Shown: positions 14,458 through 43,623 of the stretch, in pieces | How positions within the stretch are numbered: the first letter of the stretch is position 1 | Layout of the letters: each line of letters starts with the position of its first letter | IMG/VR virus record: IMGVR_UViG_3300027833_000053 | Span: 1 to 59,901 of that record | Length of the DNA: 59,901 nucleotides | Direction: 5' to 3' (one strand) | From: a virus | The notes under the pieces: generated by a model | The model's database searches: none | What the model was told of the DNA's origin: nothing | What the model saw: only the letters and a program-made list of their open reading frames with translations | Translations under genes and position numbers: made by a program

Positions 14458-14763
14458 TTAACATTTCCATCTCCTACGAGCGGCTCTAATTCTTGAATCA
14501 GGATTATTCCTAGTTTTAGCACTACTCTTCTTTAGTTGTCCTAAACTTCTAGCACAATAAGACTTTCTTCTTTTTGCAGACTTACTCCCAGCTTTAACCT
14601 TCCCCGTTACAGCAGTCTTCAATTTACTACCAGGGTTTGCTTTTCTATATGCTTTAACTCCTTTACGAGTCATACCAGCTCCAGACTTTGTAGACCTATA
14701 ATTAGCTCCTTTGCCTTTTGTGGTTTTTCTAATTGTTTTAGACTTTTTTCTTTTTTCAGCCAT
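14458..14763 (-). CDS. DUF6321-like basic protein
   Basis: A 101-residue very basic protein. The central pattern GAGMTRKGVKAYRKANPGSKLKTAV followed by GSKSAKRRKSYCARS and a C-terminal RAARRRWKC is, from memory, a conserved phage family (DUF6321-like) found near lysis or structural genes. The composition fits binding to DNA or to packaged nucleic acid. Its ATG overlaps the stop of the T9SS protein gene. Confidence 0.68.
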   Translation of the reverse strand: MAEKRKKSKTIRKTTKGKGANYRSTKSGAGMTRKGVKAYRKANPGSKLKTAVTGKVKAGSKSAKRRKSYCARSLGQLKKSSAKTRNNPDSRIRAARRRWKC

Positions 14764-21160: not shown

Positions 21161-24100
21161 TTAGTCTACCATAGATTTAATATTCCAGTATGCAGAAGGA
21201 GCTAATCTATATTTATATTTATCAGTGTCGTATAGAAGCTGCGTGTCTCTACTTAACTTGTCTTTCCAATCGTCATCATCATCCCATCCAGCCATTAACG
21301 CAATAGCAAGACTTAAAAAGACTCCGTTTCTAAACTTTCTTACACCTTCTCTAACGTGCTTAGGCTGATTCTTTAGTTCTTCGTAAGTTATCTTGCCTGT
21401 CATGTAATCAGTAACTACATTCTTAACGGCTCTTACAGAACCTACTTGATACTGTCCAAGTCTATTAATTCTTTCTTTACCAAATCTTTCAGCAACTAAA
21501 GTAGGTAAGTATTTTTTAAATTGGAATAAAAGTCTGCTTGTTGCGTGCATACCAGTAAGTCTTTGGTTTGTGGTGTTGTAACCTTTACCTTGTTCTTTCT
21601 TAACCTTTTCCATTATATCAATAACTCTTTTTTCAGATATTGGACTATTAACAATTAATCCGTTTTCATCTACATTAATGTTATTGTACTCTTCGTCAGT
21701 TAGAAAACTTAAAAAAGTAGCTCCTTGTATATATTTCTCAGACTGCTCCATTGGTAACATTATTAAGTCTGCTATTTGGTCAAATGGAGTCTTTTCCTGC
21801 ATTGAATAAAAGTTTTCATACATAGACATATCAAACGACACATAGTTTCTTATAAGAGCTGCGTTCTTTTTAAAGTTTTTAGGATTTAAAAATCTTGACT
21901 CACCTTTTATAAACTGCTTCATACCACTAGCTCTCATAGCTTGATACTTTCCAATAGCTATATTTCCTAAAGGTATTCCTATATTCCAAGGGCCTAAGAC
22001 TTTAAGTGTAGTAAATAATACAAAAGCATCAGCAGCTTTACCTAATTTAGATGTTTTCTTTTTAGGGCCTTGTTTAGCTAAATACTCTTTGTATATAGTC
22101 TGAACCCACTCTTTAAGATTTGGGTTGTCTTCGTTGTATTCTAAGACACCGTCAATCATAAATCCTAAGTTTTTAAATCCCATAAAGTCATTAGAGCCAT
22201 AATTAAACATCTGTGTTCTTAATGTCTTCAATGCAATAGACTCTAAGTCATAAGACGCAAACTCTTTCATGTTTACAGACTCCTGAGCTATGTAACCACT
22301 TGTTTCATTTGTTTCTAGCAGTAAGTTGATTGCTACTCTGTCGTATTCAATAGCAGTACCATCCTCATCTACGCCAGACTTTAAAAGTTCTTCTGCTCTT
22401 TTCTTTATTTCAGAAAAATCTTTTAGGTTTTTAAACTTAGACTTAGACACGCTTTTATTTGCATATAATTCTTTCCACTCTAAAAATGTTCTTTGTACTT
22501 GTTGTCCAGAAATAGGGTCAGTAGAATACACAGGAACACTGTTTAAATGGTTCTCCATGCCTTCGCTAGTTAAATACATACCATAAAGCCCTTGTCTCAT
22601 AAACGCTTCGTTAGAGTTAATTGTGTGATAAGGTATAGAACCAGTGTATTCTTCATTACCACTAACTGTTTGCATTACCCTACTAAACTCTGTGTGAAAA
22701 GCTTTTTCGTTTTTGCTAAGAGTAGTAGTGTCTTTTTTCAAAACTATGTATTCAGAACCATCTTTATCGGTTCTCATTTCGTAAACGTTTTTGTAAATCT
22801 CTTTATTTAAGTCTCCTTTAAACCAAAGCTTTACATATTCTACAGCTCCTACTTTTTTATAAAAGTCTGCCTTCAAGCTTTTAGCAATTACCTTAATTGG
22901 TCTAGCTTGTTTAGAGTATTCTTGTGTAAACTTAAAGTACTGCTCTTCAACAGTTCTGGTCATAGCCTGAACGTCTGGGTTGTTTGTGTCTACATCATTA
23001 GACATTAGCCACTTTTTAAAGAAAGATACATCGCCTTCGTTAGCTCCTGCATATCCTTCAGGATTTAAAGCCATCTGTTCGTCTCTTGCTTTTTGTGCAA
23101 TAAGAATAGATATTTCTTTTGTTATAGCGTTCTTTCCTACTTTTTCTAAAGAGTCGTCTGTAGAAATAGCTACAGCAGTACCCATAAGCTCTTCTTTAGT
23201 AAACTTAGACATATTAGCAAGAGAAAATTCATTTGCGTTATCAAGCAAAGAGTCTATAAACTTTTTAGAGTTTTTAAGTTTTCTAAATTCTTTTTCTACT
23301 TCTTGAGATATAGTGTCGTTTTTCATTAAAGACTTTTTCAAACCTCTAGCTTCAAAGTATTCTTCTAAAGTCATGTCTTGATTAAAGCTTCTTAATGCAG
23401 AATCATTAATGACTTTTCTTCTCATAATCCTATCACCCTTTTTTTTTAATGTTTCTGCTAAAACTATTGCAGAGTCTTTACCAGGGGGAGGTGTTGGTGT
23501 AGTTTCTACTGTGTCTGCTTTTTTAATCCACTGAGATGGATTGTTATTATCAGCAATAGACTTCAAATCAATATAGTGCAATTCCTTGTTAAACATTATT
23601 GGAGCAATATCAATACCTCCTTCTATAATAGACTTAACTTTTTCAATATCAAAAACTAAATTGTCTCCCTGTCTTGTAAATAACATATCAACAATATTTT
23701 TATTGCTTGATGTTAATTTTTGATACGGTATGTTTGCAAGCTTAAAGACTCCGTTAGATTCAATAAATTTTAAAAAGTCTCGATTGGTTTGTATAGCTTC
23801 TTTTATTTCAGGAGATAAAACATCATTTCCAAAGTATACATTAGGAACAGAATAAATATTGCTTCTAGCGGCACTAAAAACATCTGCTCTACTAAGCGTA
23901 AGTCCTTTATTTATTTTTTCAGCAGTTAAGCTTTCGTTAATTTTATTAACTATAGACGTAGGCATAACAGACAACAATGAGTTATCATTAATAAGCCTAC
24001 CTTTTTTTCCTGTTTTGCTTGGCTGGTTATATTTATAAACAAGTAAAGCTTCTGCAAAACTCATTCCCATTATTTCTATATCCTTAGACTCAATTTCAAA

Positions 24101-27100
24101 TTGACTTCTAATGTTGTTTAGTATTTCAGGAGACGTAGCTCTTGAAACGTATCCAGGTATAACATAAATACTATCTTCTAAAGTCTTCAACATACTAGGA
24201 ATAAGAGAGTCTGTAGACATATTGCCTATAGCAGACTGTATTTTTTTTCTAATGTTTTCTAGTTCGCTTTGACTAATGTCTGTTTTGAGTACGTCTAATA
24301 AAGCTTTGTCGTAAGCAGACTCTATAATTTCGTTAGAAATACTTTTAGACTTGTAGCCTTTATCAAACTTAAACACTTTAGATAAAGACTCAGAAAGCTT
24401 AACAAATTTGTCATTTGATATAGCTGTATTTTCTTTTAACGCTCTTTTAAGATTGTTTAAAGCATTCTCTCTATTTTTTATAATAGGGTCGTTTAAAAGA
24501 GCCTCTGTAAAGTTTATGATAAGAGGGTTTTCTTTAGTATTTTTCCAGTTGTTAATTCTAGTTTCAATCTCTAAGCTGCTTTGTGGATTTGTGTTGTACA
24601 CATTTAATATGTCACTCATCGCAGATAAGTCAGACTTAACAGCTTTTAAAACTTTAATTATTGCGTAAGAGTCAGAATCAGTAGATGGCTTTTTAGCAAT
24701 TCTAACAACTCCTAATTTAAATTTTTCAAGTTTTCTGTATTTAGGATATGTAGTAGTATTAAATTCAGTTTTTAATTCTTCTACTCTTTTTGTATTATTA
24801 ATTTCGTTTACAAAAGCTCTAACATCTTTAATTCCATTATTGCTTATTTCTAGCCAAGCCATAAACTCAGGAGAGTAATAATCTAAGCTAGGGTCTATAC
24901 CTTTTAATATTCTGCTTTGATTAGTGTATTTGTAAACAGCAAGCATTTCTGGACTATTTATATAGCTTAAAGCACTTGTAGCGTCAAATCCCATTCTTGA
25001 CAACAATACTAAGTCTTTTATTACCACAGTGTTTAATCCTAATCCAAAGGCTTTTAATTTAGAAGGATTATCTAAAACAAGCTGTACAAGCTCAGATATA
25101 AACTGAACTTCTTTACCGTTTTTAGAGTCCTTAAATTTATTTAAAACCTTACCTTCTATTTCTATGTTTGCGTTTATTTCTTGATTGTAAAAAGCTAAAT
25201 AGTTAGTATCTCTAAATGCAATAATAAGTTCACCTAATACGTTTCTTATTTCTAAGTTATTCTGTAAAGAGTATTTGTCAAACTGCATTGTAAGCATATC
25301 TTTTTGTTCTTCTGGAACTTTTACTCCAGACTTTTCTAAAGCACTTATGTAGTCGTCAGCTTTGTCTGCAACATTTTCTAAAGAAAGTCCAGTAACATCA
25401 GCCATTTCAGGATTAGAAATAAATCTTGTAGACTTAAAAATATAATTATTATAAGCTTTTTCAGCTTCTGTTAATTCTTTTTTGTTAATTCTACCGTCAA
25501 TAAACAATGAGTCGCCATCTTTATCCGAACCTTTAATTGCAGAGTTGCCTTCTGGTATAGCAACAACCTGTCCAGCATCGCCATCAAAAAAGTCTTTAAT
25601 TACATATACCTGAGACATAGAAAGCTTATCTGCTGGTATACGAGTAGCAGTAACAATATCTCCAACGCCAAACTTTTTTGACATAGATTCTGGTAAAACA
25701 ATTTCAGAAACAATAGAATTACCGTCTAAGTTTCCTTTTATGTAATTAATTTCAGAAGCTCTTACTCTTGATTTTAATTTAAAACCATAAGGAGACGTTT
25801 CAAAAGCTATACCACCTGGGCCTCTAAGCTTAGTTGCTCCTGATATAACGTTTTTAGAAAGAACCTCTTGTAGTTTTAACTGTATTCCAGGTAGATTTAT
25901 TAATCCACTACTAACAAGATAAGACATTGGACTACCAGCCCAGCTTGGGTCAATCATGTCTTTAATGTCTTGAGGCAAATTGTCTATTTGCTCATTGCTA
26001 TAAAGGTCTACAGCTTTAGCATAAGTATCTAATAAGTCTATTACTTCAGACTTCAAAGCATCAGTTGGTACTGACTGTAGGTAATTGCTAAGTAATTGTA
26101 TAGGAGTCGTAGAAGTAGTTTCATTTCTTTGAGACTCTAATATATTTTGTACACCAAACTTAGAAGCATCAAATCCTACGTACCTTAATCCGTCCTCGTT
26201 GCTTTTAGCAAACAAGCCATCTCTTTGCTCGTTAAGTTCAGTTAAAGATGTACGCTCTGAAATACCACCACCAAATTTATCATTTTTAATTAATAGTTTT
26301 ATTTGTGCTTGTGTAGCATTTATGCTGTTGCTACTTAAATTACTAAAAGTAGAAAGTATTTCGTCTTCTGTAATTTTTATTTCTTTTACATCTAAAGGAG
26401 TAAAGAATTTGTTTTTCGTACCAGATTTAACAGCAGACTTTGGCATAGTAACTATTGCAACATTAGTTTCAAACTTAGTAAGTAAGTGTTCTTTTCTGTT
26501 TTTCATAATAGCCCTAAGCTTTGCAAGCCCAACATAACCATTTTCAATAGACATTGCTATATACTTATCACTAAGAACAACAGTGTTGTGTTTTAAATAT
26601 GTGTCTCCAGCATCAATTCCATCTACCCTAGTGTCTCTACCAGAGTGTACTGTTTTATACACAGAACCATATTCGTTACCAAGACCAGCATTTTTATTTA
26701 AAAGTCTTGCGTCTTCAGGAAGCATTAAAGACTGTGCGTCATCTACTAGTTTGTATTCTGCTTTTTCAGCAGCAGTAAAGTCGCCAGAATCTAAGTCCTC
26801 ATCTGTAAGGTATTCAAGTCCATCTTTAGCATTAGGATTGTAATACAAGTCAGGAGTTATAATATATTCTATATGCTCAAACACAGGTCTACGTCTAGCT
26901 ATTGCCATAGCAGAACGCTTAGTATAGTCTACAGAGCTTTTTCTATCGCTATGTTTAGCTACTAAAGTTTTTTGAGCAGAGTATTTGTTTAGTGCTGTAG
27001 ACACAACTAAGTCTTCTAATAATGGCTTAGGAACTTTACCATCAGTAGATTTTATAACTCCGTTTTGAATTAAGTTGGTAATTATATAAGGATTGTCTTT

Positions 27101-30100
27101 AATATAATTTTCTAAAAACTTAACTTGTTTTGCAAGTTCTTCTTTGTTTATTATTTTTTCAAGAACAGTATTGCCATCGCTAAGTTTAAATAGGTTAGAA
27201 ACCTTATTTCCTTCAGAATATCTTGCACCCTCTATTTCTTGAGCTAAATCTATTACAAATTTAGACTCTATGCTTTTTCCAGCAGTTCTTAAATCTTTAT
27301 ACTTAGGAACAGTAACATTGTATCTCCTAGACTTTTCACTAAACACCATTATAGGCATTTGATATGAGTTTTCGTCCACAGTAAGCATTCTTAAAATGTC
27401 ACTCATTAATATCTCATCAGGAGAAAGGTTTACATAACTATCACCTTTTATCATTCCATCAATATCTGTTACTCTTACTCCAGATGAGGCAGAAATTTTA
27501 GGGCTTATTCCTAGTTTGTTTATTAAATAATCAAATACAGAACCATTAGAAACCTCTTTAATTGTTTCGTTTGTAGCTGTGGTTTGGTCATTAAGGTATT
27601 GTTTCATAGAACTAAAACCCTCATACAACGAAGATGTCTTGTTTAAAAGACTTGTGCCAGCTTCAAGTCTAGCCATATCAACCATTGTAATTTGATTAAG
27701 GTCTCTTGAAAGAATTGTTATTTCAGTTGCTATGCTTTTTAATAATTCAGAATCTATCTTACCGTTAGACTTAATAATATCATTTACTACGTCTATAGCT
27801 TTTAGCGTTTTACCTTTGTGCATAAAAGTAAAAGACTCTTGTATTGCAAATTGGTCTAAGTATGCTTGTACAGATTTAGATTTAAACTTAATATCACCTA
27901 TAGCCTCTATTAATTCAAGCATATTAACTCTTTTAGAGTCTTTTAAGAGCCTAAGTATATCTAAGCTTACATTTGTTTCATTGTCTGTAATAAGGTCTTC
28001 AATTACAAATTGTTCAAACTCAGCTATACTAGGCTCTATAAAGTAATCAGAATCTTTTTCTGTGTAAAATAAAACATCTCTTGACTCAACAACATTAGAA
28101 GACTGTTCGTGATGTATTCCTCTTGCTATAGCGTTTAAGTATTGATTAGAGCCAGCAACACTTCCGTACTTATCTTTATATAATTCTAAAGTAAATTGTT
28201 TAAATGCTTTTAATAAAGGCGTTTTAGGATTAATTATAGAGTCCATAAAGTCTGCTATAAATACATTTTCTCCTTTAGGGACTAAAGCCTTTCTAAACTC
28301 TTTTCTAATAGCCCTTCTAATAGCTCCTTCGTTGTAAAGATTTAACTCTCCTTCTAGCTTTCCGCTTTCTAATAAAAACTTACCTCTTTCGCTATTTAAG
28401 TAAAGAACAAAAGCGTCTATAAATTTAGATGTAGAAGACCTTTCGTTCTGTATTGCAACGTTGTCATTAGAATCTTTTGTCATTACAAAGTCGTCTAGCT
28501 CTTCTTCAAACAAGAAAGGTATTCTTTCAGAATTTTTATCTAATATTCCAGCAGACTCTAAAGCTTGTGTAATTTCATTATTACCTAAAGTACCTTCTGC
28601 TATAAGCTCACTTAATACTGAGCCAGATATGTCGTCTATACTTGCTTCATTATACTCATCATTAACTTCATTTATAAGTCCAGAGGTTGCAGAGTCACCT
28701 TTATTTATTCTGTCTAAAAATATAGCGGATTCGTCTTGTAAAATTTCTTTTATTTGTTCTTGCGACAATTCTTTACCAGACAGCCTTTCTATAGCAGACA
28801 TAATCATAGCTTCATATTCTCCTCTATTGTTTATAAGAACAGCTTTAATAAGCTCTGAGTTTTCATAATGTGCTTGAGCTATATCATTTAATGATTTGTT
28901 TGGCTTTTTCCTCATAACCCTAGAATTTCTTTTAGGCTTATGTATTTTACTTCTGCTGTCAGCGTTTCTTCTTATAATATCTAAAGCCTCTTCTAGCGTG
29001 TCTGCTCTATTAGCAGGAGAGTCCATTGCTTTTATAATTTTAAGCTTTTGTTCGTCTGTAGCCTTAGAAGGAACTTTAATTTTTTCTGCAACAATATTAA
29101 CTTTTCTTTTAAGTCTTTGTTCAGTCTTAACGTCTTTAGCTATTATGTCTGCAAGAGTAATGCTGTCTTTTTCTAGGTAATGAGCAAAAGCTTCTTCTAT
29201 AAGTAATTCTTGATTTTCTGGTTTAGCAACAGATATAGAGTCCATGCCCTCTATCTTTTTAAGTAAAGAGTTTATTTCATTAGTAAATATTCTACCTGTA
29301 TTTAAACTTTCTATAATACTCTTAATATCACCTTCTATAGTAGAATTGTGGTCTAACATATTTTTATACACGTTAGGATTTCTTATTATTTCTTCAATAG
29401 TTTGTGGGCCTAATTCTGTGTCAAATAAAATTAACTCAGGATAAGTCTGCGTTATATTTTTAATTATTTTACCATCTTCAAGAATAAGTCTCTTAATGTC
29501 TTGCATTAAAGGAGTGTCTTCAAACAAAGGATAAAGTACGTGTCCAAACTCATGCTTAACTACATTGGCAAAGTCTGGTCTGTTAGAAGCGTATATAGTT
29601 GCGTTTACTACAGCAGAAGTACCTGCTTCACCAAACATTTGAGACATCTCAGCTAAAGTAATAATAGCAGTGTTAGGATAGTTAGCGTCTTTTAAAGCGT
29701 AAACGTAATGTAGTGAGTTTTGTTTTTTAGCTTCGTCAAATTTAGCTATAGCTTCTTTTACTTTTTTAGTTTTTTCTTTTCTAAACTTTCTTCTTTCTAA
29801 TATTCCTAAAGGATTGTACCAGCTATACTTGTATTTGTCTTTAGCTTTTTTAGCATCTTTTTTAGCCTTTCTTACCGACTCTTTTTTACCTATAGGCTTT
29901 GACGGCTCTCCTTGTACTTTTCTAAGTTTGGCTCTTTTAAGTCTATCTAACTTTTTGTTTAACTTTTTAAGAGTCTCTTTGTTAGTTTCTTTTGCTATTC
30001 TATCTTCTAGGTTAGCAATGTCTTTGTCAAACGCTTCATTAGTTGCAGCTTTTTTAGGGTTGTCTTTTTCAGAGTTTTCTGTAACCTCTTCAAACTCTAC

Positions 30101-32797
30101 GTCTTCTATAACATCAGAAGAAACATTGTCTTTAACTTTAGGAGTATCAGACTTTTCTTTAGAAACAACTTCTGTTTCAAGTTCTTTTTTGGTAAAAGCT
30201 TCTTTAACAGATTCAGCTCCTTCTTTGACAGTGTCTACAGCTTTTTCAATAAATTGTGTCCCTTTTTCTTTTGCTTTTTGAAAAGTAGACTTTTTAGTAG
30301 GCTCAGATTCTTCAGCAGCTTTAGCTTTGTTTTCTACAAAAGTTTTGTGCTTTTCGTTAAAAGTTTTTTCTATTGCTTCAACTTTAGCTGCAAACTCTTC
30401 TTGATTTGTTGTTCCGTCTACTCCGTTTTCAGTTAATGATTCAGAAATTAATTTATCTAACTGCTCGTCTGTGAACATATCAGTATCAATATCTTTACTA
30501 CCCTTGTAGAACGCTCTAAATTTTTGAGTCATTATGTTGAACACATTTTCTTTAGGCATATCAAAAACCTGCTCACCTAAAGTAGGCTCTTGTCCTTCTG
30601 GCGCTTGTTCAGCTTGTTGTGCTTGCTCCTCTTGCTTTCTTTTTGTATAGTCTGCTTTCGCTTTATTTACACCGTCAAAAACTCCTTCTGAAAATTCTTT
30701 TACTCCTTTACCAAACTTACCTATTTGACTTGTAGCAGACTTAACAGCATCTTTAATACCCTCTACGCTTGCCGCTTTTCTTACTTTAGATTTAGTAATT
30801 AAACTAGTAGTGTAGGTGTTTATTTCTTCTTGTATTTCGCTATTAGATTTGTTAACATTATTTTGTAATGTATTAAAATCTGCGTCTAGCTCTGCTATAC
30901 GTTCATTAAGATTGCTTGCAGCTTGTTTTTTAGCAGAATCACTTAAATTGCTGCTTTCTATATCTTTAAGTTGATTTGTTAAATCAGCCTTTTGTTCGTT
31001 GTATATTGTAGACTGCTCGTTAAACTCAGCAGTATTTTTAGAAATACCAGTTTGCATTCTAAACAGCCTTGACTTTTCATTAGCGGTAATATTTTTCATA
31101 CCACTACCTACTTTTTCGTAAGTCTTTTTTTGCTCATTCATAAAAGCAACAAGCTCAGTTTGTAGTTTTGCGTCTACAGCACCACCCTCTCTACTTGCTT
31201 CTCCGTTTATCCAGGCTAATAAGTTGTCATCGTTCTGGTCAGCTACAGCCTGAGAAACCATGTCGTACATTGCAGATGTTTTGTCATAAGTGTTATCTGC
31301 ATTGTTAGCTCTATCCATTATAGAGTTTATAGCGTCTATCTTTTTGTCATTTTCAAAACTCCTGTCCGCTACGTCATTAATTAAATTTGTGTATCCACCC
31401 ACGGTAGAACCAGCCATACCAGATATAAGAGATATAGCTTTTGTTTTTCTTGCTTCATCAGATGAATAAAAGTCCCAGTAAGTAGGTGTTTTTTCTTCTT
31501 CACCTCTAGCTTCGTTAAAAGCTTTCTTCTCAATCCACTCTTGATAAGTTTCTTGAAACATCTCTTCAATACCTTCTGGAGCTAACATACCAGCAGCTTT
31601 TACACCTCTAGTTCCTTTAAGAAGTCCAGCTCCAAGTCCAGCTAATGCTCCTGTCTTCATAGCATCATCCATTCCCTCTTCTCCTAGGGTAGCCGCTCCA
31701 GCAATAGCAGCACCAGCAGCAGAACCTGCACTAGCATTGACTAATATATTTGCAGCTCTTTTACCAAATCCATTTTGTATTTGACCTAGCTTTTGTGTTG
31801 CTTTACCTAATATAATTTTAGAACCACCTCCAAATGTAAATCCCCAAGACAAAGCGTCTACCGCCATCCATTTAGAATTGTCTATAAATATATCAGCAGC
31901 TATTTGTCCAGCTAACTTTCTTCCCTCATCATCGCTTCCAAACTCCTCTAAGGCTCTATCATAAGCCATACCAGCAACAATACCACCATCAACTAAGTTC
32001 ATTCCTGCACCACCACCAATACCAGCTACAAGCTTTCCTTTTGTACTTAATCCCACAGCACCTTCTGACCTTGTAAATAGTTTGCCAATACCTTTTCCAC
32101 CTATTTGTCCAATGGTTCTTCCTGCTGGGTCTACAACCTTAGAAGATAATGCTCCAGCTTTTGCTAATCTTGTTCCACCTTTTGCAATAGACTTAGTTGC
32201 CATTTTAGTCATAAGAGTTCCTGCTCCTTTAACTAATCCTGCACCCCCTGCCATCATTGATAATAAGTTGGGGACTTGTCTTGCAAAGTCTGTAGTCCAA
32301 AAGTCTGCTGTCCCCATGTCTGACCATTTAAAGTCTTCTGACCCTGGTTTTTGATATGTTACAGCATAGTCTTGTAATTCTTGAGATGTATTTTCTTTAA
32401 CCCAGTCAAAAAAGTTTTTGCTAAAGTCTAATCCAACAGCTCTTTCTGCTGCACCAAGAGGTGTTGCAAAATTATAAACTAATTGAGTTAAGTCTACAAC
32501 TTGTTCTATAACGTCTCCAGTACCAGCAACTAAACTTTTACCAAGCTTTGTGCCTCCACTCATTAAAATATCTTCCTGAGTATTTCCTACACGCTGTCCT
32601 TGTTCGTCAAAATTAGAACCACCTTTATATTGTTGAAAAGCATCATACCCTCCTTCTCTTTCTTGCGTTGTAGCATCAACTTGTTCTTTCAATAGTTGAT
32701 TCTGCAAGTTAGCAGAAGGTGAGTCTGGTTGTTGCGGAGCTTGTGGTTTTTGATTTCTTGAATTAAAAAAACTACCAGCGTCAGAAAATTTTCCCAT
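21161..32797 (-). CDS. Giant internal virion protein with zincin and crAss-like RNA polymerase signatures
   Basis: A 3878-residue protein, 11.6 kb without interruption. Residues 1-60 are Gln-rich; 60-410 are Gly/Ala-rich hydrophobic (MMAGGAGLVKGAG; AAIAGAATLGEEG), as in ejection proteins that cross membranes. 540-720 are coiled coil and 730-1060 highly charged. HEFGH is at 1082-1086 with a downstream EEAFAHY (E1201-E1202), a gluzincin-type zinc site. Residues of about 2060-2430 resemble crAss-like virion RNA polymerases: DAGDTY-x-K, MPKSAVKSGTK, a RIP motif, VVAIPEGNSAIKG and SDKDGDSLFIDGR, with D2425, D2427 and D2429 in D-x-D-x-D order as the catalytic metal site of double-psi beta-barrel polymerases. 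The last 400 residues resemble C-terminal parts of phage polyvalent proteins (LLFQFKKYLPTLVAERF). It would be packaged, injected and transcribe early genes. Two internal virion proteins precede it. Identity as RNAP is inference from motifs and context. Confidence 0.8.
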   Translation of the reverse strand: MGKFSDAGSFFNSRNQKPQAPQQPDSPSANLQNQLLKEQVDATTQEREGGYDAFQQYKGGSNFDEQGQRVGNTQEDILMSGGTKLGKSLVAGTGDVIEQVVDLTQLVYNFATPLGAAERAVGLDFSKNFFDWVKENTSQELQDYAVTYQKPGSEDFKWSDMGTADFWTTDFARQVPNLLSMMAGGAGLVKGAGTLMTKMATKSIAKGGTRLAKAGALSSKVVDPAGRTIGQIGGKGIGKLFTRSEGAVGLSTKGKLVAGIGGGAGMNLVDGGIVAGMAYDRALEEFGSDDEGRKLAGQIAADIFIDNSKWMAVDALSWGFTFGGGSKIILGKATQKLGQIQNGFGKRAANILVNASAGSAAGAAIAGAATLGEEGMDDAMKTGALAGLGAGLLKGTRGVKAAGMLAPEGIEEMFQETYQEWIEKKAFNEARGEEEKTPTYWDFYSSDEARKTKAISLISGMAGSTVGGYTNLINDVADRSFENDKKIDAINSIMDRANNADNTYDKTSAMYDMVSQAVADQNDDNLLAWINGEASREGGAVDAKLQTELVAFMNEQKKTYEKVGSGMKNITANEKSRLFRMQTGISKNTAEFNEQSTIYNEQKADLTNQLKDIESSNLSDSAKKQAASNLNERIAELDADFNTLQNNVNKSNSEIQEEINTYTTSLITKSKVRKAASVEGIKDAVKSATSQIGKFGKGVKEFSEGVFDGVNKAKADYTKRKQEEQAQQAEQAPEGQEPTLGEQVFDMPKENVFNIMTQKFRAFYKGSKDIDTDMFTDEQLDKLISESLTENGVDGTTNQEEFAAKVEAIEKTFNEKHKTFVENKAKAAEESEPTKKSTFQKAKEKGTQFIEKAVDTVKEGAESVKEAFTKKELETEVVSKEKSDTPKVKDNVSSDVIEDVEFEEVTENSEKDNPKKAATNEAFDKDIANLEDRIAKETNKETLKKLNKKLDRLKRAKLRKVQGEPSKPIGKKESVRKAKKDAKKAKDKYKYSWYNPLGILERRKFRKEKTKKVKEAIAKFDEAKKQNSLHYVYALKDANYPNTAIITLAEMSQMFGEAGTSAVVNATIYASNRPDFANVVKHEFGHVLYPLFEDTPLMQDIKRLILEDGKIIKNITQTYPELILFDTELGPQTIEEIIRNPNVYKNMLDHNSTIEGDIKSIIESLNTGRIFTNEINSLLKKIEGMDSISVAKPENQELLIEEAFAHYLEKDSITLADIIAKDVKTEQRLKRKVNIVAEKIKVPSKATDEQKLKIIKAMDSPANRADTLEEALDIIRRNADSRSKIHKPKRNSRVMRKKPNKSLNDIAQAHYENSELIKAVLINNRGEYEAMIMSAIERLSGKELSQEQIKEILQDESAIFLDRINKGDSATSGLINEVNDEYNEASIDDISGSVLSELIAEGTLGNNEITQALESAGILDKNSERIPFLFEEELDDFVMTKDSNDNVAIQNERSSTSKFIDAFVLYLNSERGKFLLESGKLEGELNLYNEGAIRRAIRKEFRKALVPKGENVFIADFMDSIINPKTPLLKAFKQFTLELYKDKYGSVAGSNQYLNAIARGIHHEQSSNVVESRDVLFYTEKDSDYFIEPSIAEFEQFVIEDLITDNETNVSLDILRLLKDSKRVNMLELIEAIGDIKFKSKSVQAYLDQFAIQESFTFMHKGKTLKAIDVVNDIIKSNGKIDSELLKSIATEITILSRDLNQITMVDMARLEAGTSLLNKTSSLYEGFSSMKQYLNDQTTATNETIKEVSNGSVFDYLINKLGISPKISASSGVRVTDIDGMIKGDSYVNLSPDEILMSDILRMLTVDENSYQMPIMVFSEKSRRYNVTVPKYKDLRTAGKSIESKFVIDLAQEIEGARYSEGNKVSNLFKLSDGNTVLEKIINKEELAKQVKFLENYIKDNPYIITNLIQNGVIKSTDGKVPKPLLEDLVVSTALNKYSAQKTLVAKHSDRKSSVDYTKRSAMAIARRRPVFEHIEYIITPDLYYNPNAKDGLEYLTDEDLDSGDFTAAEKAEYKLVDDAQSLMLPEDARLLNKNAGLGNEYGSVYKTVHSGRDTRVDGIDAGDTYLKHNTVVLSDKYIAMSIENGYVGLAKLRAIMKNRKEHLLTKFETNVAIVTMPKSAVKSGTKNKFFTPLDVKEIKITEDEILSTFSNLSSNSINATQAQIKLLIKNDKFGGGISERTSLTELNEQRDGLFAKSNEDGLRYVGFDASKFGVQNILESQRNETTSTTPIQLLSNYLQSVPTDALKSEVIDLLDTYAKAVDLYSNEQIDNLPQDIKDMIDPSWAGSPMSYLVSSGLINLPGIQLKLQEVLSKNVISGATKLRGPGGIAFETSPYGFKLKSRVRASEINYIKGNLDGNSIVSEIVLPESMSKKFGVGDIVTATRIPADKLSMSQVYVIKDFFDGDAGQVVAIPEGNSAIKGSDKDGDSLFIDGRINKKELTEAEKAYNNYIFKSTRFISNPEMADVTGLSLENVADKADDYISALEKSGVKVPEEQKDMLTMQFDKYSLQNNLEIRNVLGELIIAFRDTNYLAFYNQEINANIEIEGKVLNKFKDSKNGKEVQFISELVQLVLDNPSKLKAFGLGLNTVVIKDLVLLSRMGFDATSALSYINSPEMLAVYKYTNQSRILKGIDPSLDYYSPEFMAWLEISNNGIKDVRAFVNEINNTKRVEELKTEFNTTTYPKYRKLEKFKLGVVRIAKKPSTDSDSYAIIKVLKAVKSDLSAMSDILNVYNTNPQSSLEIETRINNWKNTKENPLIINFTEALLNDPIIKNRENALNNLKRALKENTAISNDKFVKLSESLSKVFKFDKGYKSKSISNEIIESAYDKALLDVLKTDISQSELENIRKKIQSAIGNMSTDSLIPSMLKTLEDSIYVIPGYVSRATSPEILNNIRSQFEIESKDIEIMGMSFAEALLVYKYNQPSKTGKKGRLINDNSLLSVMPTSIVNKINESLTAEKINKGLTLSRADVFSAARSNIYSVPNVYFGNDVLSPEIKEAIQTNRDFLKFIESNGVFKLANIPYQKLTSSNKNIVDMLFTRQGDNLVFDIEKVKSIIEGGIDIAPIMFNKELHYIDLKSIADNNNPSQWIKKADTVETTPTPPPGKDSAIVLAETLKKKGDRIMRRKVINDSALRSFNQDMTLEEYFEARGLKKSLMKNDTISQEVEKEFRKLKNSKKFIDSLLDNANEFSLANMSKFTKEELMGTAVAISTDDSLEKVGKNAITKEISILIAQKARDEQMALNPEGYAGANEGDVSFFKKWLMSNDVDTNNPDVQAMTRTVEEQYFKFTQEYSKQARPIKVIAKSLKADFYKKVGAVEYVKLWFKGDLNKEIYKNVYEMRTDKDGSEYIVLKKDTTTLSKNEKAFHTEFSRVMQTVSGNEEYTGSIPYHTINSNEAFMRQGLYGMYLTSEGMENHLNSVPVYSTDPISGQQVQRTFLEWKELYANKSVSKSKFKNLKDFSEIKKRAEELLKSGVDEDGTAIEYDRVAINLLLETNETSGYIAQESVNMKEFASYDLESIALKTLRTQMFNYGSNDFMGFKNLGFMIDGVLEYNEDNPNLKEWVQTIYKEYLAKQGPKKKTSKLGKAADAFVLFTTLKVLGPWNIGIPLGNIAIGKYQAMRASGMKQFIKGESRFLNPKNFKKNAALIRNYVSFDMSMYENFYSMQEKTPFDQIADLIMLPMEQSEKYIQGATFLSFLTDEEYNNINVDENGLIVNSPISEKRVIDIMEKVKKEQGKGYNTTNQRLTGMHATSRLLFQFKKYLPTLVAERFGKERINRLGQYQVGSVRAVKNVVTDYMTGKITYEELKNQPKHVREGVRKFRNGVFLSLAIALMAGWDDDDDWKDKLSRDTQLLYDTDKYKYRLAPSAYWNIKSMVD

Positions 32798-36661: not shown

Positions 36662-37392
36662 TATGATATGTCGTAAGTATTGTTATATTTAGAAGCCATT
36701 TCCATGTAATCTTGATTAGCGTCAATCAAATCTTGTTTTTGTTCTAACTTTCTGCTTTTGTATTGAGCTTCTTCTTTTGCTTCCCTTTTTTCTTTTCTTT
36801 TTTTCTTTCTGTGTTTCATGTATAATAAAGCTCCAGCACCTAAAGCTAAAGGAGCTAAAGGAGTTAATGCAGCTAACCCTGCACCTGCACCTGCACCTGC
36901 TGCACCTGCACCTGCTCCACCACTAAGTCCAAGTTTTCCTATAAGTCCTTTTAGCCCACCCGAACCTAACAATGGCTTTATTTGATTTACTAAATTCACT
37001 CCTTGTGAAACAGTATTCATTACGTTGCTAGGGCCAGTTGTTGTTAGTTGTTGTGCTTGCTCACCTGGAGCTTCTTCGTAATAATTTGTAAAAGTTCCAT
37101 CAGTAGCACTTTGATATTGATTAGGGCCAGTGCTTCCTTCTATGTTAGAACCAGAAGCTAGACTCATTGAGTTGTATGCGTATGGGTCTTGTAGTGAATT
37201 ACCATAATTAATCGAAGACATTGTTGGAGAACCTCCTAAATTCATGCCTTGACCACTCTGCATTCCAAAGTCTAAATTTCCACTACCAGCTCCTGAAGGT
37301 GATAATATCATTTGTTTTATTTGCTCATCAGTCAAACCTGCATAAGCTGGGTTATTTCTTAAAGTCATAAACTCGTCCGTACCGTCTGCCAT
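36661..37392 (-). CDS. Gly/Ala-rich internal protein with hydrophobic segment
   Basis: A 243-residue protein. The first 140 residues are Ser/Gly/Gln/Asn-rich and disordered. Residues 150-195 are Gly/Ala/Leu-rich and hydrophobic (GAGLAALTPLAPLALGAGALLYM), flanked by a basic tract KHRKKKRKEKREAKEE, a membrane-inserting layout. It may be an ejected channel protein, like small ejection proteins of other podoviruses. A hexanucleotide tandem repeat codes for part of the Ala/Gly run. A promoter box lies 35 bases upstream. Confidence 0.6.
   Translation of the reverse strand: MADGTDEFMTLRNNPAYAGLTDEQIKQMILSPSGAGSGNLDFGMQSGQGMNLGGSPTMSSINYGNSLQDPYAYNSMSLASGSNIEGSTGPNQYQSATDGTFTNYYEEAPGEQAQQLTTTGPSNVMNTVSQGVNLVNQIKPLLGSGGLKGLIGKLGLSGGAGAGAAGAGAGAGLAALTPLAPLALGAGALLYMKHRKKKRKEKREAKEEAQYKSRKLEQKQDLIDANQDYMEMASKYNNTYDIS
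36879..36917. repeat. Short tandem hexanucleotide repeat
   Basis: About six imperfect copies of GCACCT on the plus strand, coding on the minus strand for the Ala-Gly run of the membrane-like segment in the 243-residue protein. Because units are multiples of three, length changes would keep the frame and vary the hydrophobic stretch. Confidence 0.7.
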
Positions 37393-40300
37393 TATTTAAA
37401 AGATTGTCTAATTTTAGCTACTATCGCAAAGATACTAAATTTAGTGTTATTGTTATTTTTAAGTTTTATTTTAGAGTAAGTACCAACAAGTCTTTTTGCT
37501 GCTGTCTTACCTCTTAGTGGAAAGCTAAGTATACCTTCTCTAAGTGTGTGTATTAAATCACTAGCAAATGTAGTGGTTTGTTCTGCTGTTTTGTCTGTGC
37601 TAAAAGCTGCTCCAGTTAAACTTACAGTTCCATCAGTATCTGTATCGCCTATAACCTCAACAGCATCAAACTTTTTACTATTTACAGCTCCATCATTTAC
37701 TATAATTTCTATGTCTTGCTCATAAGTACTTGTAAATATTTTACCATAGTTAGAAGCGTCTTTATCAAATTCGTAAACCTTGCTGCAAGCAGCATTACCA
37801 TTACCTATGGTTTCGTTTATTCTACCATGAGAATACAAATTACCTTGGTGCATAATCCACAAAGGAGGAGTTGCGTTTGACTTGCTTTCAAAAGCATTCA
37901 TATACTCGTTGTAAGCAATAGATATTTTATTGACAGTGCTTCCAGTTTTATCAGAAAAAGTAAATATTACTCTTTTTTCTTTTTGGTCATAACCTACACT
38001 TACACCTCTAGCGTCTTGAGCAAAGTGCTGTTGTGAGTCTTGTATTCTTGGGTATGTAGTATTAGGTTTTTTAGACTTAAAGGTAGACGTAGAAGAAATT
38101 GTGTCGTTCATAAACTTCATCACCCCTTTATCAGAAATGCTTTCAAGCCTGTCTGTAAACCTGTGTATCTTAGAGTTTTTTGCGTCTACAAAATACAAAG
38201 CATTATCCGTAGATAAAACTCCTTCTCTATGTATGCTACCGTATTGTTTTGATATATAAGAGTGGTTTTCAATAGTATTAGCAGAGCCAATTAAAATTCC
38301 TTCTGCTCCTCCAATTAAAGCTCTACTATTAATAAATAATTTTGTAAACCCTGAGTCTTGCAAACAGTATAGATTATCTCTAAAATTAACTATAGAGTTT
38401 ATTTCACCAGCATCATTATCTAAGTCGTGAAACTGCACAACAGGAAATTGTCTATAAGAATCTTCTAATTCTCCAGAGACTTTGCTTTTGCTGTATGCAA
38501 CCTGAACAGGTTGGTCTAAGTCTATAGCCTTTTTTGATTCGTCTACAGATATATAACCCTTAAAGTTAGGCTCTTGACTATAAACAGAATTGTATAACAA
38601 GTCGTTTTTATTTGGTATTACATCAGGAAAAAATCCAGCTTCAGCTTTACCTGCTTGTAAATGAAATCCACTTCTCATGTCTGGATTAACTCTTGACTCT
38701 ACTGGATAAGTAATAAACTTAGCAGCAGAACCGTCTGGATGATAGTGAGACATTGATAATTGATGAGAAAAAATAGATGTAAATACATCTCCACCATGAA
38801 CAGTCTGTTTAAAATTTGTGCCTGAAGTGTGTCCAGGAACAACTACCTTAACAAATTCTCCAGCTTTAATGTACCTTGTGTTGAACAAAGAGTCATTCGT
38901 TACTCCGCCATACATAGACTCTCTTTCAGAGCTACTTTTAACTATGTCTACAAGTAACATATAAGGATTCTTTTTATGTCTATAAGAGTTAGGCCATAGT
39001 AAATTACCATCACCTAAAATAAGTCTATTAAGGTTAGGTATTCTTGGCATACCAGCAGGAGAAACAAATATTCCTTTATTACCTTTTTGTACGCTTTTTA
39101 CTTTTTGATAAGAAGTTGATGTCGTGCTAACTAAATAAGATTCAAAATAACTTGTGTATGTAGTGTCGTCATCATCAGGAGACCCTTCTGGAGTTAATCC
39201 TGCTGCCCTTACGTTACCATAAGTCATGTTAATAAAATTCTTATTGTATTTATTAACTCTAGTAGTATCTCCTTCTAAAACCTCTTCTGCCTGGTCTAAA
39301 AGAATACTTCTAACGTATAGAAGTTTTGCATCAGCACTACCAGTAGCATTACTGTCGCTTATATCAAAAAAGTAACTACCAAAAGTGCTGTTATTGTTAT
39401 AAGCTTTAATTGCAGAGTCTCCATTAGTAAATGTTTGTTCTGCTAAAATTGAAAACTGTGTATCTACAGTATATGTTTTTCCAAAATATTTATGCTGACC
39501 ATCTGTTGCGTTAACAACTTTTTTTCCATAATATCTTTGTCCAGCAGTTGAATTTCCAAATGTATAAGATTCTGTTGATTGAAACTGAATGTTGTCTTTA
39601 AGACTTATTGTAGATACAGTTTTTATTCTATCTGTTGATGAGTGTTTGTATGGATAAACACCAAAAAGACTATCTGGACTATAGACTACACCTATGTTTG
39701 GTACACCCCAAAACCTATTTCTTACAGCGCTTGTGTCTGAATAGTTTTGTGAATATGAAGAACCAAAAATGAAAGATGTAGGCTCGTTAGCGTTAGTTTC
39801 ATCATGCTCATCGTAAAATATGTGTTCTGCCACCCCATACTTTGCTCTAAAGTCTTCTAGCTTTTCATTAACTAAAATTCTATTAGCTTCATTAGTGCCA
39901 CCTATATTGCCTTCTGCTTCATTTTTAAGAGAGTTGGTAGTTCCTTCATCATTAAATATTAAGTTAGCTCCCTCTCTAAAAAGTCCAGACTGCATCACAG
40001 ACGCGTCTTGCATACTTCTTTCAGCTCTTACTATTTGAAATCCTGATATTTTATCTAAAACAGACTGAGGAAATTTAAACTCGCACACTATAGCTAAATC
40101 CATAGTGTAGTGTTTAAAAGTACGCTGTGCAGATGAGTCCGTGTCTGTAATTGGATATAAAAAATTTCTTGCGCTATTATTTGTTGCGTCAAAATTAGAA
40201 ACGTTATTAAAAAAGTTGTACGGTAAATCTACGTGTCCAGGAACAGCTATACCGTCTACAACATCAAGTCTATAATCTTCTGCGCAAACATTTCCATTAA

Positions 40301-42542
40301 TTCTTGGCGGCTTACCAACAGTTGTAATTACATCTACTGGACTTCCACCTTTTGTTGATTTTACAGTTCCTAATTCTAATTCTAAATTTCTGTCTCCATG
40401 CTCAGGCATTTGGACATCTCCCATCCATAATGTGTTTATTGGGTTTCCTTTTTTATCAAAAAACAATACACCTAATCTATATATCTCTCCTCTTTTGTAG
40501 CCTTTTAAAGTAAGCATTTGAGGGTCTTTATTACTAGAAGATGTGGTGCTAGAAAAAACTTTTGCGTCAGTATTGTTTATATCAACAGAGGTTATGCTGT
40601 CGTTAGTTTGTATGTAAGGAGCTTCTGAAGGATTAGCTTTTACTTCATCTGAAACTTTTGGAATTGTTTTAAATGAAAGTCTCACTCCAGCTCCAGCGTA
40701 GTAACCAGGAGATACCGCTCCTAAAACTCTCATAGCCTTACTTACTTGATTTGCTTCACTAGCATCAACAGTTTCATTTAAGGTATAGCTGTAGCCTCCA
40801 TTAGAACCTAATTCATCAGCAGTAATTGTAGTAAATTGACCTAAGTAAGAGTAAGTGTGAGATGTGACAAGATTAAGAGTGATGTTGTCATCTTGTATAA
40901 TGTTAACCTCGTCTAGCTCTATAAATAATTTTCTAACTCCAGTAGGAACATTTGTAATTGTAAGTCCAATATTATCCCAAGCAGTCATAAATCCAGTAGC
41001 TCCTTGACCATTAGCAAAATTATTTTCACCTATTGCCTCTCCATTTACAACGTGTGTGGTTGATGAGTCTTGCCAGTTCCCTGAAGAATTATAAAACTTA
41101 TTATAAGTTCCATCTCCCGTTGTATCTACTTTTATTCTCCAGTGATATTTAAATTTATCTGAAGCTTCATATTTTTTTACGCTATCATTACCTCCTGCAT
41201 TAATATAATTTGCAGAAGAAAATATAGTTAAATTTCCAAAGTCTACGCCAGAACCAAAAGTTTCTTCAACAGCCGTACCTAGTGTAAAACCATTGTTTTT
41301 TGGTTGATACAAAACTGATTGAGTTGTAGGAGTAGATGAACTTAAATTTTTAGAATAATTAACTTGAAAGTTTCCTGGTAAAAATCTATAACCGCCTATA
41401 TCTTGATTAGCTCTTACATACTCTCCACTTGACAAATATCTTGTAGCTTTTTTAACATTTGTTGTAGACCATCTTTCTAAAGTAGGATTAAACTCATCAG
41501 AACTTACAAAAGCGTCTCTTTTTCTTGTGTTTACAGCAAATAAAATATTGTCTTTAATTGCTAAGTCTTTTGCTACATCAAAAGTATTTTTAGGCTCAAG
41601 TATTTCGTTAATAGAGACTTCGTTATCACTTTCATTTCTACTATGAGTAAAGGTTATAGAGTTTGAACCATCTATAAGTCTGTCAGAAACAAGATACACT
41701 TTTTGTGTGCCATTAAGTTGTTCGTAGAAAATAGCAAAAAGTTTTGCTCTTTCAAAAGTTGAATCTACATTGTCAAGCTTTAAAGTTAAACCCATCGTAG
41801 AGTCTATTCCTTGAGGAGAACCCATAAATTTTTTATAAGCGCCTGTGTTAACCGTAGTATGATAGAGTCCAGACAAAGGTAAAGCTGCTGTTTCTGCACC
41901 ATCCTGAGTCACGTACTTTGCGCAATACTGATAAGTACCAACTCTTAAAGAACCTCCTACAACACCTGTTAAATATGGGCTTTGTGGCTTCACAGAAGGC
42001 AACAGTTCTAAATTGTTTATAGGTAGCTGAGTAATTGTTATTGGATAGTTTTCTAATTCATATACCTCAAGCTCTAAGTTCATAGACCTTACTGGGTTTA
42101 TATTGTCAGTCCAGTAAATTCTTCTTGTTGATTTATTTTCATAAGAACCCACAACCTTTACTGGCTGTGTTTCTGTCATATTTAAAGCAGCAGAATAAAG
42201 ATGAGTTGCAGCACCAACAGAATTTGTTTCACTAGTAAAAGAATCGTCATCATTTTTAGTAAACATAAAAATCTTTGTAGTAGAAGCTGATGCTGTAATT
42301 CCGTCTACGTGAATTAAAACTATTTTGTCAGCAAAAGAATAATAACCTACAATATTACCATCTGTTAATCCTGTATTTATTCTTTCTGTTTGACCTTTAA
42401 AGTTTTCTACAGAAAATGTGTTTCCTTCAAGTCCAACTACCTTAATGTTGTTTGCGTCCCTGTATGTGCCTGGAGGCTGCATTCTTGGGTCAACATCCAT
42501 GTTAAGTCCAGCCTGAAATGTATTTGGTTTTGCTTTTGGCAT
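37392..42542 (-). CDS. Large tail stabilization/muzzle-type protein
   Basis: A 1716-residue beta-rich protein. The opening (NTFQAGLNMDVDPRMQPPGTYRDANNIK) is typical of the very large stabilization proteins of crAss-like phages and their relatives, which form the tail knob or muzzle. Long stretches read as beta-propeller or beta-sandwich strands (GNIVGYYSFADKIVLIHVDG; NFRDNLYCLQDSGFTKLFIN; DNALYFVDAKNSKIHRF). No catalytic motif is seen. It lies between the tail-tube-like gene and the internal proteins, as in Crassvirales. It is the second largest gene here. Confidence 0.78.
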   Translation of the reverse strand: MPKAKPNTFQAGLNMDVDPRMQPPGTYRDANNIKVVGLEGNTFSVENFKGQTERINTGLTDGNIVGYYSFADKIVLIHVDGITASASTTKIFMFTKNDDDSFTSETNSVGAATHLYSAALNMTETQPVKVVGSYENKSTRRIYWTDNINPVRSMNLELEVYELENYPITITQLPINNLELLPSVKPQSPYLTGVVGGSLRVGTYQYCAKYVTQDGAETAALPLSGLYHTTVNTGAYKKFMGSPQGIDSTMGLTLKLDNVDSTFERAKLFAIFYEQLNGTQKVYLVSDRLIDGSNSITFTHSRNESDNEVSINEILEPKNTFDVAKDLAIKDNILFAVNTRKRDAFVSSDEFNPTLERWSTTNVKKATRYLSSGEYVRANQDIGGYRFLPGNFQVNYSKNLSSSTPTTQSVLYQPKNNGFTLGTAVEETFGSGVDFGNLTIFSSANYINAGGNDSVKKYEASDKFKYHWRIKVDTTGDGTYNKFYNSSGNWQDSSTTHVVNGEAIGENNFANGQGATGFMTAWDNIGLTITNVPTGVRKLFIELDEVNIIQDDNITLNLVTSHTYSYLGQFTTITADELGSNGGYSYTLNETVDASEANQVSKAMRVLGAVSPGYYAGAGVRLSFKTIPKVSDEVKANPSEAPYIQTNDSITSVDINNTDAKVFSSTTSSSNKDPQMLTLKGYKRGEIYRLGVLFFDKKGNPINTLWMGDVQMPEHGDRNLELELGTVKSTKGGSPVDVITTVGKPPRINGNVCAEDYRLDVVDGIAVPGHVDLPYNFFNNVSNFDATNNSARNFLYPITDTDSSAQRTFKHYTMDLAIVCEFKFPQSVLDKISGFQIVRAERSMQDASVMQSGLFREGANLIFNDEGTTNSLKNEAEGNIGGTNEANRILVNEKLEDFRAKYGVAEHIFYDEHDETNANEPTSFIFGSSYSQNYSDTSAVRNRFWGVPNIGVVYSPDSLFGVYPYKHSSTDRIKTVSTISLKDNIQFQSTESYTFGNSTAGQRYYGKKVVNATDGQHKYFGKTYTVDTQFSILAEQTFTNGDSAIKAYNNNSTFGSYFFDISDSNATGSADAKLLYVRSILLDQAEEVLEGDTTRVNKYNKNFINMTYGNVRAAGLTPEGSPDDDDTTYTSYFESYLVSTTSTSYQKVKSVQKGNKGIFVSPAGMPRIPNLNRLILGDGNLLWPNSYRHKKNPYMLLVDIVKSSSERESMYGGVTNDSLFNTRYIKAGEFVKVVVPGHTSGTNFKQTVHGGDVFTSIFSHQLSMSHYHPDGSAAKFITYPVESRVNPDMRSGFHLQAGKAEAGFFPDVIPNKNDLLYNSVYSQEPNFKGYISVDESKKAIDLDQPVQVAYSKSKVSGELEDSYRQFPVVQFHDLDNDAGEINSIVNFRDNLYCLQDSGFTKLFINSRALIGGAEGILIGSANTIENHSYISKQYGSIHREGVLSTDNALYFVDAKNSKIHRFTDRLESISDKGVMKFMNDTISSTSTFKSKKPNTTYPRIQDSQQHFAQDARGVSVGYDQKEKRVIFTFSDKTGSTVNKISIAYNEYMNAFESKSNATPPLWIMHQGNLYSHGRINETIGNGNAACSKVYEFDKDASNYGKIFTSTYEQDIEIIVNDGAVNSKKFDAVEVIGDTDTDGTVSLTGAAFSTDKTAEQTTTFASDLIHTLREGILSFPLRGKTAAKRLVGTYSKIKLKNNNNTKFSIFAIVAKIRQSFK
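37427..37434 (-). promoter_or_regulatory. Bacteroidota-type -7 promoter box (TATCTTTG)
   Basis: TATCTTTGCG on the minus strand inside the end of the stabilization protein gene, 35 bases before the ATG at 37392. Could start a transcript for the Gly-rich, lysozyme, internal and giant protein genes with a short leader. The base after GC is G rather than A, so slightly weaker than the others. Confidence 0.5.
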
Positions 42543-42544
42543 TA

Positions 42545-43201
42545 TTAGTGATTTTTAAGACCGTTAGAAGACTTTATTGGAATTAAAGTGTTCCAATACT
42601 TACCTATCTCAGAAAGTTCCTGAGAGCTTGGCATTCCATCAATACCTCTTGCTTGACCACATAGAAAGAACCATCTTTTTTGCAAATCGTTTATAACGTA
42701 TTGAGGAACTTTACCATTATAGTAATCTATATTTTTAATCATCCACATACAATAAGCTACAACTGCTTCAATGTGAGCGTCATTAATTTTAGGGTATCCG
42801 TCAGCGTCTAAAGGTATTGTAAGTACAGATAAGGTAAGAACTACCCCATCATCAAGCTTTGCGTTTATATATCCATCTTGTATATAATATCTGTCTCCAG
42901 TTACCATGTTGTCTGTGTCTGCATCTACTCCTACAGGATTTCCTCTAAAGTGAGCATGAGTTGGTTTCAGTATAGAGCTGCTATTAGAAACAGAAAGAAC
43001 CTTAACTATATTAGAAGGCAGTGCAGCTCTATTAGAAGCTATAGTTACATTTTCTTCTGTTTGTATAAAAGACTTTAAGCCTCCAATAAACTTTTCTGCT
43101 TCAAAAGCCCATTCTATTATACTCTGTTCTTTGTCTAAGACATCAACACCTAGGTTTCTAGTTACTGAAGCTAATACTCGTTTGATAGATACAAAATTCA
43201 T
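42545..43201 (-). CDS. Tail tube/adaptor-like protein
   Basis: A 218-residue protein with helical start (NFVSIKRVLASVTRNLG) and IEWAFEAEKFIGG, then a beta domain (VLSVSNSS...GDRYYIQDGYINAKLDDGVVLTLSVL) and helical end (VVAYCMWMIKNIDYYNGKVPQYV). This arrangement fits the tail tubular/gp4-like adaptor proteins of podoviruses and the Ttub protein of crAss-like phages. It follows the IHF-like gene and precedes the stabilization protein. Confidence 0.68.
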   Translation of the reverse strand: MNFVSIKRVLASVTRNLGVDVLDKEQSIIEWAFEAEKFIGGLKSFIQTEENVTIASNRAALPSNIVKVLSVSNSSSILKPTHAHFRGNPVGVDADTDNMVTGDRYYIQDGYINAKLDDGVVLTLSVLTIPLDADGYPKINDAHIEAVVAYCMWMIKNIDYYNGKVPQYVINDLQKRWFFLCGQARGIDGMPSSQELSEIGKYWNTLIPIKSSNGLKNH

Positions 43202-43203
43202 AT

Positions 43204-43623
43204 TTAAAAGTCGTTACCTTTGTTTAATTCATTATTAATAGCTTTTTTAAAAAATCCCATTGGATTAATTTTTGCCATTTTATATTTTTTAGGCCTTAAC
43301 CAAACCAACTTATAATAATAGTCGTTTAATATTGGCACTTTATATGTTACTCTCTTTCCTTGCTCATCAACTTCGTTAATGTTACATCTATAATGAAAAG
43401 CTCTTTTTTGTAACATTTTCTTTATATATACTTTACCAAATCTTGCTGGCAATGTAACTGTTGCTTTTTCAACAACTAGCTCATGTATTAACTCTTCAAA
43501 AAACGTTTTAACTATATTGTAAAAACCACTATAGCTAATCTTTTCTATATCTCCTTTTGTAGCGTTATAAATATCTTTAACGCTGACGTACTTGTCCTTG
43601 TACTTCCGTTGGTGCTTCTCCAT
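43204..43623 (-). CDS. IHF/HU-like late protein
   Basis: A 139-residue basic protein. The first 70 residues follow the IHF/HU-like layout conserved in crAss-like late blocks: KYVSVKDIYNATKGDIEKISYSGFYNIV, then a strand pair VVEKATVTLPARFGKVYIKK. The remainder is basic (RVTYKVPILNDYYYKLVWLRPKKYK). Crassvirales encode such IHF-like proteins at the same place, next to the tail tube gene. A structural ring role or DNA organisation near the portal is possible. It overlaps the next upstream gene by 47 bases. Confidence 0.7.
   Translation of the reverse strand: MEKHQRKYKDKYVSVKDIYNATKGDIEKISYSGFYNIVKTFFEELIHELVVEKATVTLPARFGKVYIKKMLQKRAFHYRCNINEVDEQGKRVTYKVPILNDYYYKLVWLRPKKYKMAKINPMGFFKKAINNELNKGNDF

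Follow-up and report, generated by a model that had tools for sequence, protein, structure and literature searches.

A probable virion RNA polymerase with a DKDGD metal-site loop in a 3,878-residue protein of a compact crassvirus

The stretch of DNA analyzed here (the window, 59,901 nucleotides) is a whole virus record. Its structural module is arranged in crassvirus order, with terminase, portal, Crass_capsid, rings 2 and 1, and muzzle, and the gene of a giant protein comes after three further ORFs. The genes are located as follows.

50989..52803, minus strand: terminase large subunit (phrog_6681, 2e-93)
48724..50988, minus strand: portal protein, used for phylogeny (phrog_6547, 3e-116)
46117..47616, minus strand: crassvirus major capsid protein (PF23898, 9e-33)
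42545..44236, minus strand: crassvirus ring proteins 1 and 2, separated by a small ORF (PF24228, 4e-30; PF25702, 9e-22)
37392..42542, minus strand: crassvirus muzzle protein (PF25731, E 2e-120)
21161..32797, minus strand: giant protein of 3,878 aa, an uninterrupted ORF

Judged by its sequence, the window genome is that of an uncultured crassvirus. A relative of 60,318 bp (G001; L204-L206), about 82-96% identical per aligned block, was circularly permuted relative to the window: window positions 1 and 59240 are separated by some 420 bp in G001, whose own ends join inside the window. Because of this permutation, the window genome is read as essentially complete at about 60 kb, compared with about 97-103 kb in crAssphage, phi14:2 and crAss001. 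No close relative was found among annotated phage records, in which the portal was at most about 32% identical, and current annotation would for this reason miss the lineage. A scan based on the portal gene recovered many further contigs of the lineage, two of which (L201 and L202) hold a polymerase. Portals 52-100% identical to that of the window were found on L122-L147 and L159, most of which are too short to reach the polymerase; the lineage is thus of considerable size.

Two other proteins of the window gave domain matches. In the 609-aa protein at 14763-16592, a domain for type IX secretion sorting (Por_Secre_tail, E 1.3e-6) was recognized, which suggests a host among Bacteroidota. The 688-aa protein at 34595-36661 had matches to Phage_lysozyme2 (E 3e-12) and to a PHROG of tape-measure type; it sits between the muzzle and the polymerase, where cargo proteins may lie, and showed no detectable similarity to crAss001 gp45 or gp46.

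The initial annotation had described a 3,878-residue protein with SDKDGD at the metal site of an RNA polymerase, and the ORF bears this out, the motif being residues 2424-2429 (window 25511-25528). The range then given to the polymerase, 25400-26650 (residues 2050-2466), contains the metal site and most of the core, but the core proved wider on both sides: K2048 lies beyond one end, and conserved blocks continue beyond the other to about residue 2620. From the N-terminus of the protein, the following features were assigned.

32198..32548, minus strand: N-terminal segment, residues 84-200, resembling the phi14:2 structural protein gp078
29540..29554, minus strand: zincin-like HEFGH, residues 1082-1086, kept in the G022 homolog
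24848..26950, minus strand: RNA polymerase core, about residues 1950-2650 (profile-profile match; AlphaFold top hit 6VR4)
26393..26743, minus strand: predicted double-psi beta-barrel B region (beta-like), about residues 2019-2135 (block alignment)
26654..26656, minus strand: K2048, which may correspond to the third canonical Lys (QPLK), invariant in the lineage, alignment uncertain
26591..26593, minus strand: K2069 in YLKHN (K1027 of phi14:2 gp66), Lys in 92% of cores
26426..26428, minus strand: K2124 in SAVKSG of barrel B (K1065 of phi14:2 gp66), Lys in 76/76 cores; 73/73
25478..25810, minus strand: predicted double-psi beta-barrel A region (beta'-like), about residues 2330-2440 (model and homology)
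25634..25642, minus strand: R2386-x-P2388, ahead of the metal site, 100% in 76 cores
25511..25531, minus strand: metal-site motif GSDKDGD, residues 2423-2429, with D2425, D2427 and D2429
24938..25111, minus strand: conserved block LDN..LGLNT..R-G..SPE, about residues 2563-2620, after the metal site (canonical VDNAKDP..NxNT..R-G..QP)

The protein is thus laid out as an N-terminal part, a zincin-like motif, a central RNA polymerase core and a long C-terminal part. Residues 84-200 were 29% identical to phi14:2 gp078 over 127 aa (E 6e-4, blastp in a small set). Homologs were found at full length with 93% identity in L001, and with 3,827 aa and 45.6% identity over the full length in G022. HEFGH precedes the metal site by 1,342 aa. 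In fused ORFs of canonical crassviruses the corresponding spacing was similar (1,322 aa in L028, 1,465 in L046, 1,402 in L051 and 1,378 in L092), and in Carjivirus communis (crAssphage) the zincin-like gp45 comes directly before the catalytic gp44, the same order as inside the window protein. For these reasons the window protein resembles an in-frame fusion whose parts are two or three separate proteins in other crassviruses. In crAssphage the functions joined here would be split over gp44/gp45, two proteins of 1,957 and 4,070 aa, and in Bacteroides phage crAss001, with a 102.7-kb genome, over the three polypeptides gp47, gp49 and gp50. The window protein is not unique in its length, as fused ORFs of 3,600-4,400 aa also exist in other crassviruses.

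The giant protein was not recognized in Pfam and PHROGs searches, and its single sequence matched nothing in the PDB. Its best sequence match was crAssphage: residues 2294-2453 matched the Carjivirus RNAP catalytic subunit by tblastn, with E of about 5e-3, or 3e-7 in a small set. Such weak similarity to any single known protein would be expected if the motif had arisen by chance in some giant tail or ejection protein of no relation to polymerases. However, GSDxDxD is expected only 0.0085 times per shuffle of the 3,878-aa protein, and profile-profile alignment refuted this explanation. When a profile of four members of the window lineage was aligned by hhalign with one of 23 canonical environmental crassvirus RNAPs, the probability was 98.4 and E was 9.9e-15 over 593 columns; a profile of only the window and its nearest relative still gave E 6.6e-9 against the canonical RNAPs. 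With the invariant residues, the conservation within the lineage and the fold match described below, a chance motif is hardly credible. The sequence comparison shows that the core is a homolog of crassvirus virion RNA polymerases, as had been proposed from the order of motifs. Searches of the PDB by hmmsearch with profiles lacking canonical members (A8, A15) did not reach 6VR4.

We aligned the window core with phi14:2 gp66, crAss001 gp50 and Carjivirus gp44, which have in common with it GSD.D.D, R-x-P, DAQ and later blocks. The core of phi14:2 gp66 (PDB 6VR4; Phi14:2_gp077 in KC821624) agrees with that of the window in motif order, in the three Asp and in R-x-P, and its genome context is likewise that of a crassvirus, whereas it is a separate protein of 2,180 aa with DFDID in the metal loop and about 20% core identity. 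Across 76 aligned cores, the G, S and three Asp of GSD.D.D, the R and P of R-x-P, and the Lys at window residue 2124 were invariant.

In barrel B, the blocks DDAQS, YLKHN and SAVKSG aligned to the canonical DAQ, KNS and SAVK.G, and YLKHN was invariant in the window lineage. Absence of the conserved lysines of this barrel had been named beforehand as the finding that would speak against a polymerase; K2124 and K2069 were both present, and K2048 is a plausible third, being aligned with the Lys of QPLK by hhalign and gapped by MAFFT. K2099 and K2213, which a five-sequence alignment had offered as first-barrel lysines, were dropped given the 76-sequence alignment and the conservation within the lineage. 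In QDE-1, K743 and K767 are the lysines used as an analogy for substrate contact (PMC1750930), and we infer that two of the barrel-B lysines should contact substrate in the same way.

The metal site lies in GSDKDGDSLFIDG (residues 2423-2435). In a survey of 98 loci, we found GSDFDID in 64, GSDFDVD in 26, GSDFDGD in 7 (two from one contig) and GSDKDGD in 1. Counts of the DGD forms are lower bounds and rare forms are undercounted, because the search pattern demanded K, T or S before GSD; L201 and L202, which have Leu there, were missed by it and were reached via the portal gene. Motif-pattern scans built on two-sequence alignments gave poor patterns and recovered little. The form DFD[I/V]D, present in 90 of the 98 loci, is common, not known to be required, and the window is without it. 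The initial annotation had stated that described crAss-like enzymes carry DFDID, which holds for phi14:2 gp66 (residue 1361) but not for Carjivirus gp44 and crAss001 gp50, both of which carry DFDVD.

The second position of the motif was Phe in every canonical relative surveyed and Lys in the window lineage, so that among the surveyed loci Lys here is peculiar to this lineage by sequence. GSDKDGD was identical in the window, L001, L201 and L202, and the latter two, with core identity of 48-51% to the window, both read GSDKDGDSLFIDG. Between the window and L001, dN was 0.020 and dS 0.269 in the core at 2340-2650, the motif codons differed only synonymously, and purifying selection was strongest around the metal site. 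This identity in relatives at 48-51%, together with the purifying selection, indicates that DKDGD is a fixed signature of a whole lineage of uncultured phages, neither a sequencing error nor drift, and agrees with the earlier proposal of a variant branch.

A replacement of Phe by Lys beside the metal ligands, unique to the window lineage in our survey, could instead mark loss or change of function in a catalytically dead or altered relative, whose fold was kept for structure or ejection. We regard this as improbable. The protein has retained R-x-P, K2124 and all three Asp, the last as remarked in the initial annotation; the motif did not vary across the relatives at 48-51% core identity; selection was strongest around the metal site; and no second giant polymerase-like ORF was found in the essentially complete genome of about 60 kb.

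The structure of residues 1863-2782 was predicted by AlphaFold with 73 alignment rows, which included canonical relatives. The model had pLDDT 63 and pTM 0.63. The metal-site barrel, from about residue 2333, was mostly beta with pLDDT 71-89, and barrel B was of mixed confidence and low in parts. Comparison with phi14:2 gp66 had been suggested as a check, and in a Foldseek search of the PDB with the model, 6VR4 came first with E 6.4e-12 and TMq 0.51. The next matches were Thermus phage P23-45 gp96 and QDE-1, both at about 1e-3, and cellular beta' was far behind. A control model without canonical rows (the window lineage and a second group with DFDGD, 9 rows) had pLDDT 32 and was uninformative. 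Canonical relatives were among the rows behind the informative model, so that the predicted fold, while agreeing with the homology, is not independent of it.

The DGD form of the metal loop is that of cellular-type RNA polymerases; the initial annotation had called this form closer to cellular and YonO-type enzymes. The form is also found in P23-45 gp96, a giant virion protein with a two-barrel RNAP, a metallopeptidase and DFDGD (PMC10770324). Both facts would fit a crassvirus that had separately acquired an RNA polymerase of cellular or YonO-like type. Such an acquisition is nevertheless very unlikely, since the homology spans the whole crassvirus core and the profile alignment contradicts it, the gene position and zincin spacing match those of canonical crassviruses, and the best fold match is a crassvirus enzyme. 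The overall homology being to crassvirus vRNAPs, DGD is best read from the sequences as a feature of a single loop, either retained or convergent, and not as a sign of kinship with cellular enzymes, which corrects the initial annotation. P23-45 gp96 differs from the window protein in that its RNAP is at the N-terminus of a tape-measure fusion in a long-tailed phage, whereas the RNAP of the window is central and accompanied by crassvirus tail genes; no sequence homology between the two proteins was found. QDE-1 and YonO have the Asp triad and a single chain as in the window and are not crassvirus virion proteins, YonO being set against the window by description alone.

The group with DFDGD consists of seven uncultured crassvirus-like contigs (L014, L021-L025 and L121), with ORFs mostly of 4,600-5,800 aa, the longest 5,797 aa. 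The crassvirus muzzle family was present in 6/6 of its contigs searched, and the group aligned with canonical enzymes at E 2e-25; one member, compared with annotated phages, gave no match. As in the window, the metal loop of these contigs contains DGD and is preceded by TR[IV]P(A/S), and the muzzle family of the six searched is likewise shared. Unlike the window, they keep Phe at the second motif position, and their HExxH is mostly 720-780 aa after the metal site instead of 1,342 aa before it.

In a first core tree, the window and the DFDGD group were joined with support of 100 on a branch of 2.8. A joining branch of 2.8 invites long-branch attraction, and we do not claim that the two DGD groups form one clade; the position of the zincin-like motif, before the metal site in one and after it in the other, also argues against a close sister relation. 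In the core tree with L201 and L202, which is unrooted, the DFD[I/V]D enzymes came together at 92 with both DGD groups outside, and a long branch led to the window lineage. The portal tree placed the window between the DFDGD and DFD[I/V]D groups. Because both DGD groups lie outside DFD[I/V]D and both P23-45 gp96 and cellular enzymes have DGD, we infer that Gly may be ancestral and Ile or Val derived in crassvirus enzymes. On this polarity, what is new in the window lineage would be the Lys at the second position. A wider proposal, which we put forward tentatively and at somewhat less than even confidence, is that DGD is ancestral, that the DKDGD and DFDGD branches predate DFD[I/V]D, that the Lys alters active-site chemistry, and that the one polypeptide is the whole injected transcription block.

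Taken as a whole, the window protein very probably serves a compact crassvirus as its virion RNA polymerase. By sequence homology it belongs to the known crassvirus vRNAP family, as a new and deep variant, and is no new kind of polymerase. In crAss001, gp47, gp49 and gp50 were detected in virions by mass spectrometry and are thought to pass through the tail partly unfolded (PMC10172136), and the vRNAP of phi14:2 is active in RNA synthesis in vitro and is responsible for early transcription that resists rifampicin (PMC10136315). By analogy with these proteins, the window protein is most likely an active, injected early-gene polymerase. One chain, in which an ejection-type part at the N-terminus is followed by a zincin-like motif and a predicted two-barrel RNA polymerase, would be packed in the head as cargo, extruded via the portal, tail rings and muzzle, and refolded in the host, where it would transcribe early phage genes without the host RNA polymerase. 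In GSDKDGD, the three Asp would coordinate the catalytic Mg, and the lysines of barrel B would touch the incoming nucleotide or the nascent RNA. Homology, residue conservation, genome context and selection were observed directly; packaging, injection, activity and the early-gene role are argued from the known phages.

Crassvirus virion RNA polymerases are known structurally and biochemically mainly from phi14:2 gp66. A lineage in which Phe is replaced by Lys beside the catalytic Asp, and Ile or Val by Gly, offers a natural test of the roles of those positions, and the variant loop bears on the kinship of single-chain two-barrel polymerases with cellular RNA polymerase and QDE-1. In addition, the lineage represents a compact crassvirus of about 60 kb whose injected transcription machinery is apparently in one polypeptide.

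Two further observations were made on the polymerase genes. An Arg-rich segment, KRSAMAIARRRP, at window 26890-26925 (residues about 1958-1970), was invariant in four lineage members, and in other aligned crassvirus polymerases only KR of it is shared; the segment is a possible candidate for nucleic-acid contact. In seven contigs (L013, L015, L045, L055, L062, L089 and L102), the open frames that contain the polymerase motif are short under the standard code (80-270 aa). They suggest reassigned stops, frameshifts or introns, such as have been described in zeta crAss-like phages.
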